A DNA stretch of 20,769 bases from a virus, in IMG/VR virus record IMGVR_UViG_3300025326_000238, positions 1-20,769 of that record, one strand, 5' to 3'. A model generated the notes under the pieces. The model had not been told where the DNA came from. It saw nothing but the letters and a program-made list of their open reading frames with translations, and searched no databases. Both the position numbers and the translations under genes were made by a program. Positions 14,766 to 19,530 of the stretch are shown here, piece by piece (within the stretch, counting starts at the first letter, position 1; each line of letters opens with the position of its first letter).

Positions 14766-14889
14766 ACAATATAAGGCCCCGCCGTGGGCCAAAGGCCAGG
14801 GATGAACCGCCTCCTGGGCGGTTCGCAGTTTTCCCTAAACCCTGGCCGGGAATACGGCGAACTGCGGGCCGACCAAGAGGCGGTTTTTC
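14766..14889 (+). ncRNA. structured RNA leader with competing helices and a possible pseudoknot
   Basis: About 120 bases between the promoter and the GTG of the replication gene are packed with perfect complements. Nested helices: GGCCC (14775-14779) with GGGCC (14866-14870); CGCCGT (14780-14785) with ACGGCG (14854-14859); GGCCAGGG (14794-14801) with CCCTGGCC (14840-14847); and the hairpin AACCGCC-TCCTG-GGCGGTT (14805-14823). CGCAGTT (14824-14830) can pair with AACTGCG (14860-14866) as a pseudoknot. Alternatives include AACCGCCTC (14805-14813) with GAGGCGGTT (14877-14885), which would hide the AAGAGG ribosome binding site, and TTCCC (14831-14835) with GGGAA (14848-14852). This looks like a regulatory RNA or switch; no known class was recognised. 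Confidence 0.6.
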
Positions 14890-15468
14890 GTGCCTAGCAA
14901 ATACTGGATCAAGCTCTACCACGAAATCATTGACGATCCGAAGATGATGCGTATGCCGGATGAGATGTTTGCCAAGACAATCAAGCTCTTCCTCCTAGCT
15001 GGAGACCACGACCAAGACGGCGAGCTACCTTCGCCAGAGGATATTGCGTGGCGCTTGCGTTACGATCCCAGTGACGTTGATGTAACGCTTCGTTACTTAG
15101 AGCGTAACGGCATCATTTCACAGAACGGATCTGGGGCATGGTGCATAAGCAAGTGGGCAGATAGGCAAGGCCCCATATCTGGCGCTGAGAGGGTCCGCAG
15201 ACACCGTATATCCCGTAGAAACGAACCTGTAACGAATCGTTACACAGAATCAGATCAAGAATCAGATACAGAAGAGATGAGATCAACATCCACAAGCGTT
15301 ACAGACCTGTTCCACTTCGGAGTTCCGCTAGACGCTGCACGACAGTACGTTGAGAGAGTGGGAGAAGAGAGAGCGAGAGAACTTAATACTCTTTTGTTCA
15401 AGGGAAAGATGGACAAGACCATCCGATCACCCAAAGCATACGCACTCAAAGTAATCTCAGAGGAGTAG
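14890..15468 (+). CDS. probable replication initiator/replisome organiser with winged helix
   Basis: A 192-residue protein read from a GTG, with AAGAGG nine bases upstream. The N-terminal domain (about residues 1-95) begins (M)PSKYWIKLYHEIIDDPKMM and continues FLLAGDHDQDGELPSPEDIA, VDVTLRYLERNGIIS and WCISKWADRQ. This is the winged-helix layout of phage replisome organisers and DnaD/DnaT-like loaders. A charged linker (about 95-130) leads to a small helical C-terminus (GVPLDAARQYVERVGEERAR). Seven hexamer repeats lie inside its coding region, as with lambda-like O genes that carry the origin. No helicase or primase gene is in the window, so it presumably recruits the host helicase. Family assignment is by pattern. 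Confidence 0.65.
   Translation: MPSKYWIKLYHEIIDDPKMMRMPDEMFAKTIKLFLLAGDHDQDGELPSPEDIAWRLRYDPSDVDVTLRYLERNGIISQNGSGAWCISKWADRQGPISGAERVRRHRISRRNEPVTNRYTESDQESDTEEMRSTSTSVTDLFHFGVPLDAARQYVERVGEERARELNTLLFKGKMDKTIRSPKAYALKVISEE
15058..15302. repeat. iteron-like array of CGTTAC/GTAACG hexamers (candidate replication origin)
   Basis: Seven copies: CGTTAC at 15058, 15091, 15238 and 15297, and GTAACG at 15082, 15104 and 15229. Two pairs form dyads with the same 3-bp spacing: GTAACG-CTT-CGTTAC (15082-15096) and GTAACG-AAT-CGTTAC (15229-15243). The latter sits in the 17-bp perfect palindrome TGTAACGAATCGTTACA (15228-15244). The copies fall in more than one codon phase, so codon preference does not explain them. 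I noticed only one other copy in the window, at 19527. Placement inside a replication initiator gene suggests an origin. Confidence 0.65.
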
Positions 15469-19338: not shown

Positions 19339-19530
19339 CTCCGAAAAGGCCTCACCCAGGAAGCCGTGGAGGAGGCCAAGAGAGTCTACTTCTCCAAGTA
19401 CGGGAGTGAACCTAGAGAAGTTCTTTGTTCGCAGGCGCACTCACCCATTCCAGGAGTAACCCAGGATCGAGGCATACCCTTGGGCGTATTGCTTTTGACA
19501 TTCTCCCAAGAGAGGCCAGATGGGGCGTAA
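19309..19530 (+). CDS. 73-residue paralogue sharing the MTLREGLLWQ start
   Basis: AAGGA precedes the ATG by nine bases and the start overlaps the previous stop. Residues 1-10, MTLREGLLWQ, repeat the start of the upstream protein. Next comes a helix LRKGLTQEAVEEAKRVYFSK, then a Pro/Gly-rich C-terminal part (SPIPGVTQDRGIPLGVLLLT) of different character that may be out of its original frame or degraded. Function unknown. Confidence 0.6.
   Translation: MTLREGLLWQLRKGLTQEAVEEAKRVYFSKYGSEPREVLCSQAHSPIPGVTQDRGIPLGVLLLTFSQERPDGA

Follow-up and report, generated by a model that had tools for sequence, protein, structure and literature searches.

A putative iteron array inside a phage replication initiator gene and its covariation with residues of the encoded protein

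Introduction

In phage lambda, the iterons of ori-lambda are located within the O initiator gene, between the parts encoding the DNA-binding and partner-binding regions, and lie beside an AT- and purine-rich stretch. Origins embedded in this way have been described in a few model phages, and both the specificity residues of initiators and the joint change of origin and initiator have been hard to study. In phage SPP1, the gp38 protein binds direct repeats accompanied by an AT-rich DNA unwinding element (DUE) both inside gene 38 and at oriR (PMC6316719). An origin was also proposed inside the initiator gene ORF20 of phage 80alpha (PMC5499656), and the sequence record of this phage (DQ517338) has a putative origin annotated there.

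Here we describe a hexamer array inside the initiator gene of a metagenomic virus. As in the oriL/oriR system of SPP1, where gene 38 contains repeats and a DUE (PMC6316719), the repeats lie in the virus's own initiator gene beside an AT-rich candidate DUE. We propose, with a probability of about 85%, that the hexamers serve as iterons for the protein whose gene contains them and that they mark the phage replication origin.

Results

Initiator gene and its product

The window, i.e. the whole stretch of DNA analysed, comprises a whole record of a metagenomic virus (20,769 bases) and contains terminase and portal genes of tailed phages. The initiator gene is located at 14890–15468 on the plus strand and encodes 192 amino acids. 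It is directly preceded by a gene with an RNA-ligase domain (PF09414; 14094–14708). The protein matches phrog_3926, 'replication initiation protein' (E = 2.9e-8), which establishes its homology to phage replication-initiation proteins. Two further matches fall short of their cut-offs, namely PF09681 (21.3 bits against a gathering score of 23.3, E = 2.7e-4) and TIGR01714 (20.8 bits against the NCBIfam cut-off of 49.8, E = 3.3e-4). Judged by these scores, the protein is a distant relative of Phage_rep_org_N that lies below the curated cut-offs and is thus no filed member. Among 27 close relatives, phrog_3926 is matched by 26 and PF09681 by ten (E ≤ 0.01).

The first-pass annotation had compared the gene with the lambdoid O genes. 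The presence of iterons inside an initiator gene is indeed common to both, but the protein is Phage_rep_org_N/DnaD-like and not detectably a lambda O: it has no Pfam match to Phage_rep_O at E ≤ 1, and an O-like PHROG is matched, weakly, by one of the 27 relatives.

The AlphaFold2 model, built with the 27 relatives, has a mean pLDDT of 78.9. It predicts a confident winged helix at residues ~5–93, a basic helix at 98–110 (pLDDT about 86–87), a disordered linker, of low confidence at 111–136, and a short helical C-terminal part. A Foldseek search returned generic winged-helix matches only, none of them at E ≤ 0.001. The basic helix, GAERVRRHRISRR, is encoded at 15181–15219 (plus strand); it contains the conserved R101 and R106 and, in the window, V102 and H105. 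The helix prediction and the covariation described below point to it as the putative iteron-reading element.

A long hairpin is predicted just upstream of the GTG start of the initiator gene (14805–14885, plus strand; −57.9 kcal/mol, z = −6.1), and none of 200 shuffles reached an energy as low. Its 3' arm contains the purine-rich sequence AAGAGGCGG. The hairpin could possibly serve in translational control or as a terminator. Inspection by eye of the region upstream of the nearest relative (L081) revealed no such hairpin. An Rfam search gave no match.

Hexamer array in the window

A scan of the entire window places seven copies of CGTTAC or its complement GTAACG within 245 bp, at 15058–15302. 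Putative iteron 1 is located at 15058–15063 (plus strand), iterons 2 (15082–15087, minus) and 3 (15091–15096, plus) are the left and right halves of a GTAACG-N3-CGTTAC dyad at 15082–15096, and iteron 4 is found at 15104–15109 (minus). Iterons 5 (15229–15234, minus) and 6 (15238–15243, plus) form the second dyad, at 15229–15243, which sits in a 17-bp perfect palindrome, TGTAACGAATCGTTACA, at 15228–15244; iteron 7 follows at 15297–15302 (plus). The count, the two dyads and the palindrome agree with the first-pass annotation. The only further copy in the 20.8 kb is located at 19527 on the minus strand. The array spans the 245 bp such that half of it falls within winged-helix codons, an arrangement in which most relatives differ. 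Between iterons 6 and 7, the linker-coding stretch 15244–15296 (plus strand) is rich in AT (0.62) and purines (0.68) and is a candidate DNA unwinding element.

Dinucleotide shuffles give 3.5 chance copies of the hexamer per 20.8 kb, or ~0.04 per 245 bp, and other hexamer classes reach at most four copies in any 245 bp of the window. Among 200 windows simulated by an order-2 Markov model, none had seven copies of any hexamer, and the best count, six, was seen in four of them. When the protein was held fixed and codons were drawn from the phage's own usage (20,000 draws), the gene had 0.78 copies on average and five at most. Permuting only the synonymous codons of the gene itself raises the mean to 2.2 CGTTAC copies, and the window gene alone falls short of significance by this test once all hexamers are corrected for (p = 0.195). 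Such a permutation is too conservative, because the sites themselves shape the linker peptide; nevertheless, because the single-gene test is not significant, the evidential weight is put on the relatives.

Two other expectations for the array fared less well in the window. The copies had been said to use several codon phases; five of the seven are in phase 0, with one each in phases 1 and 2, and the statement holds rather for the family, where sites occur on both strands and in all three phases. The GC skew, suggested as a check, lends no support to an origin at the array: its sign changes at ~11.5 kb, away from the array and close to the switch in gene direction at about 10–10.4 kb.

Conservation of the array in relatives

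A plain protein search of viral_contigs returned no close relative of the window protein, and relatives were reached via an alignment of four weak phage matches. They were gathered by protein alone, blind to the motif, from viral contigs and many, mostly Firmicutes, genomes. In the resulting sample of 77 initiator genes (non-redundant at 70% identity; 2080 hexamer classes), CGTTAC is the most over-recurrent hexamer, with at least three copies in 20 of the 77 genes (0.4 expected), and CGTGAC is the second (14 of 77; 0.35 expected). At least three copies of CGTTAC were found in none of 140 neighbouring ORFs of the same loci. Absence of the array from relatives that keep the protein had been named in advance as grounds for abandoning the origin proposal; the array is kept. 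Repeated sites within the initiator gene that are conserved in relatives are one of the features expected of an iteron origin embedded in such a gene.

The sites of the relatives are located mostly at codons 105–150, just after the basic helix and 200–400 bp inside the gene. A common arrangement is GTAACGTTAC, in which two sites share the CG (45 cases); the other is direct repeats 10–11 bp apart. The 60 bp after the arrays exceed the gene in AT content in 57 of 60 genes (mean excess 0.108), and their purine fraction is 0.72 versus 0.60. By composition only, a candidate AT-rich unwinding element thus lies next to the arrays of the family.

On the 30.8-kb contig of the phage with structural genes closest to those of the window (L020/G003; terminase ~68%), no initiator homologue could be detected and no array is present. 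The initiator was likewise not found when phages related by their terminase were searched over their entire records. Kinship by terminase is no guide to the replication module. In the order of the host of L168, some genomes contain up to nine copies of the initiator gene each (G659, G660, G667, G668, G683, G687 and G703 are multi-copy genomes), which suggests that many prophages or other elements use this initiator.

Further repeats were also observed. The freshwater/proteobacterial branch (L105–L157) has neither such a basic helix nor a CGTNAC array; GATATC/ATATCA words (TTGATATCAA-like) recur in many of its genes and are candidate iterons of this branch. Arrays of 10–12 TCTGAA/AGACTG words are present in the initiator genes L091:1995-2792 and L101:1986-2927, where the basic helix differs (EINKRYY, ESNRAYY). 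The Streptococcus/Brochothrix phages Javan207, Abc2, BL3 and Javan35 (L379, L380, L382 and L384) have ADRIRKYR- or ERKKRYR-type helices together with TGTACA- or GGACA..TGTCC-type repeats, and a similar code may apply to them. Two arrays of CGTTAC in non-coding DNA (L004:5367-5687 and L013:3489-3755; 11 and 13 sites) precede GATAAGATAAG-like runs; no initiator homologue was detected in the stretches examined there.

Covariation of basic-helix residues with site spelling

Sixty genes could be typed by their sites as T (CGTTAC) or G (CGTGAC). Covariation with type is confined to three residues of the basic helix, with z = 17.8 at position 102, 16.2 at 105 and 7.2 at 98, and the remaining positions of residues 4–115 have z ≤ 2.5. 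Residue 102 is V (20), Q (8), A, I or M in T-type genes and K (19) or N (3) in G-type genes; residue 105 is H or Y in the former and mostly Q in the latter. Columns 102 and 105 also have the highest mutual information with type when the window's clade and the Firmicutes clade are analysed separately; these clades are about 28% identical, and they agree in which residues accompany which spelling. On a tree built from residues 1–92 only, the spelling changes at least eight times on supported branches. Residue 102 follows the type in 7.8 of eight independent pairs, and in no pair does it change the opposite way (p = 0.008).

In short, V102 with H or Y105 accompanies CGTTAC, and K102 with Q105 accompanies CGTGAC. 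A rule was recorded before new genes were obtained, and the held-out genes were less than 70% identical to the earlier ones. All 17 held-out genes that were both called and typed were predicted correctly (6/6 and 11/11). In genes that the rule left uncalled, Q102 pairs with CGTTAC and N102/Y105 with GTGACG. Named phages, taken without a redundancy filter, agree with the rule: Listeria phage LMC and Javan242 are T, and P282, PH15, phiRgPS_6 and phi6229 are G. Exceptions include four genes with V at 102 and fewer than three CGTTAC (L171, L089, L098 and L232) and two K..Q genes without CGTGAC (L209 and L363, the latter with five copies of GGGACA); L079 and L256 fit the rule poorly.

Several phages constitute natural experiments. 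The staphylococcal phages P282 and 71 are identical at 103 of 104 winged-helix residues; P282 combines RK..QR with CGTGAC, and phage 71 combines RQ..YR with CGTTAC. Phage phi6229 has a split initiator gene, with three sites kept in the non-coding gap. Phage 055SW001 (RV..YR) has no array within its initiator gene; its cluster of GTTAC sites is intergenic, at a distance of 13 kb, and lies beside an AT-rich run.

The strict covariation at three helix residues and the 17 correct held-out predictions support the earlier proposal that the gene's own product binds the sites, and the CGTTAC copies are very probably its landing sites; binding by the initiator is, on this comparative evidence, strongly supported. 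Specificity appears to reside in the basic helix that follows the winged helix, which corrects the first-pass annotation. The recognition helix of the winged helix was also considered as the specificity determinant and was rejected, as it has no covarying column and is common to P282 and 71.

The same correlation would arise if basic-helix codons and array were merely inherited jointly as a recombination cassette while another part of the protein set the specificity. The helix codons and the array are commonly within ~100 bp of each other, P282 and phage 71 resemble a cassette exchange, and, owing to this physical closeness, cassette inheritance does add to the correlation. However, residues 99–101, 103, 104 and 106–115 are equally linked and stay at z ≤ 2.5, the residue-spelling pairing recurs in both distant clades, and P282 and 71 have the same winged helix with different sites. 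As the whole explanation of the covariation, joint inheritance therefore seems improbable to us.

Discussion

Origin or other function of the sites

Origin function is suggested by architecture and by analogy with SPP1, 80alpha and lambda, because the sites lie inside the initiator gene and are followed by an AT- and purine-rich stretch, as in SPP1 and as proposed for 80alpha. The sites could instead form an autoregulatory operator through which the gene's product shuts off its own transcription, with no origin involved. The binding evidence would be identical, and the sites are located within the transcribed gene. Yet the arrays lie 200–400 bp inside the gene, away from the promoter, an AT- and purine-rich stretch follows them in 57 of 60 genes, the array of 055SW001 is 13 kb from the gene, and in the comparable initiator system of SPP1 such sites are proven origins (PMC6316719). 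We accordingly hold the operator explanation to be unlikely.

A different phage regulator, such as a CI/Cro-like repressor, could use the dyads as its operators. Look-alike dyads at repressor genes also turned up in the DNA-pattern scan, and an unrelated group of prophages (L002 and L005–L012) has GTAACGaaaCGTTAC dyads on either side of a cI-like repressor gene. Because GTAACG-N3-CGTTAC dyads occur in that setting too, the dyad alone is not diagnostic of an origin. The window sites, on the other hand, are in the middle of a coding gene, and site spelling in the family covaries with the initiator's own residues, which makes a foreign repressor very unlikely here. The least credible explanation treats the repeats as chance or as a side effect of the peptide they encode (VT..RY, NVT), in line with the five of seven copies that share a codon phase and encode VT or RY and with the 2.2 copies that survive synonymous-codon permutation, but it is contradicted by family sites on both strands and in all phases, by their recurrence in 20 of the 77 genes, where 0.4 would be expected, and in no control ORF, and by arrays kept in the non-coding gap of phi6229 and in intergenic DNA of 055SW001.

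Proposed mechanism

The preferred reading is an iteron origin recognised by the product of its own gene. The array, its conservation, the covariation and the held-out predictions were established by computation. From the covariation we infer physical binding, and from the architecture and SPP1 an origin function; the position of the helix in the groove, the opening of the strands and the loading of the helicase are likewise proposals. Just past the winged helix, the basic helix 98–110 (A-E-R-V-R-R-H-R) would insert in the major groove so that residues 98, 102 and 105 point towards the bases. V102 and H105 would select T at position 4 of CGTTAC, K102 and Q105 of relatives would select G at this position (CGTGAC), and the conserved R101 and R106 could make the contacts common to both spellings. 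In either orientation, several monomers would load onto the array, the adjacent AT- and purine-rich stretch (15244–15296) would melt, and the initiator together with a helicase loader would bring in the helicase. Loading of several monomers beside an AT- and purine-rich stretch is the general pattern of iteron origins.

We also lean towards a broader reading, in which a large group of phage initiators combines a bZIP-like basic helix with a winged helix and follows a simple residue-to-base code: V, I, Q or A at 102 would specify CGTTAC and K would specify CGTGAC, with H/Y and Q, respectively, at 105. The helix and its matching array would be mobile between phages as a cassette, so that origin specificity could change while the rest of the initiator stays unchanged. 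Given a few residues, the rule reads the spelling of an origin in phages and prophages from a wide set of hosts. It finds an origin candidate outside the gene, in 055SW001, and predicts which phages and satellites can replicate on each other's initiator. In the open-access literature we found no CGTNAC iteron family, no such residue code and no bZIP-like phage initiator; older specialist papers may have escaped this search, and the priority of the code is not certain.

Comparison with known systems

Lambda O differs from the window protein in its family, as judged by Pfam, and in its iteron. The 80alpha ORF20 is another kind of protein with repeats of another kind, and its sequence shows neither a start resembling PF09681 nor a basic helix nor a CGTNAC array. 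SPP1 has a second origin elsewhere in its genome, and the remote array of 055SW001 recalls its oriR (PMC6316719). The origins of SPP1 were proven experimentally, whereas that of the window is a candidate.

The basic region of eukaryotic bZIP proteins has the register N-x2-A-A/V-x2-S/C-R, in which positions 0, 3, 4, 7 and 8 read the bases. The window's 98-x2-R101-V102-x2-H105-R106 appears to fit this register, the covarying residues 98, 102 and 105 corresponding to positions 0, 4 and 7 and the conserved R101 and R106 also falling in register, and GTTAC and GTGAC resemble bZIP half-sites. Unlike bZIP proteins, the window protein has no leucine zipper, and its helix is modelled to stop at residue 110. 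We note this likeness as a resemblance and claim neither membership nor homology.

The Phage_rep_org_N initiators of Firmicutes phages (such as VEsP-1, phiEf11, P282 and phage 71) differ from the window protein in several respects: it is only ~28% identical to that of VEsP-1, is shorter, falls below the curated cut-offs and has part of its array in winged-helix codons. They share with it the N-terminal winged helix, the basic helix and a linker, with CGTNAC iterons in the corresponding part of the gene.
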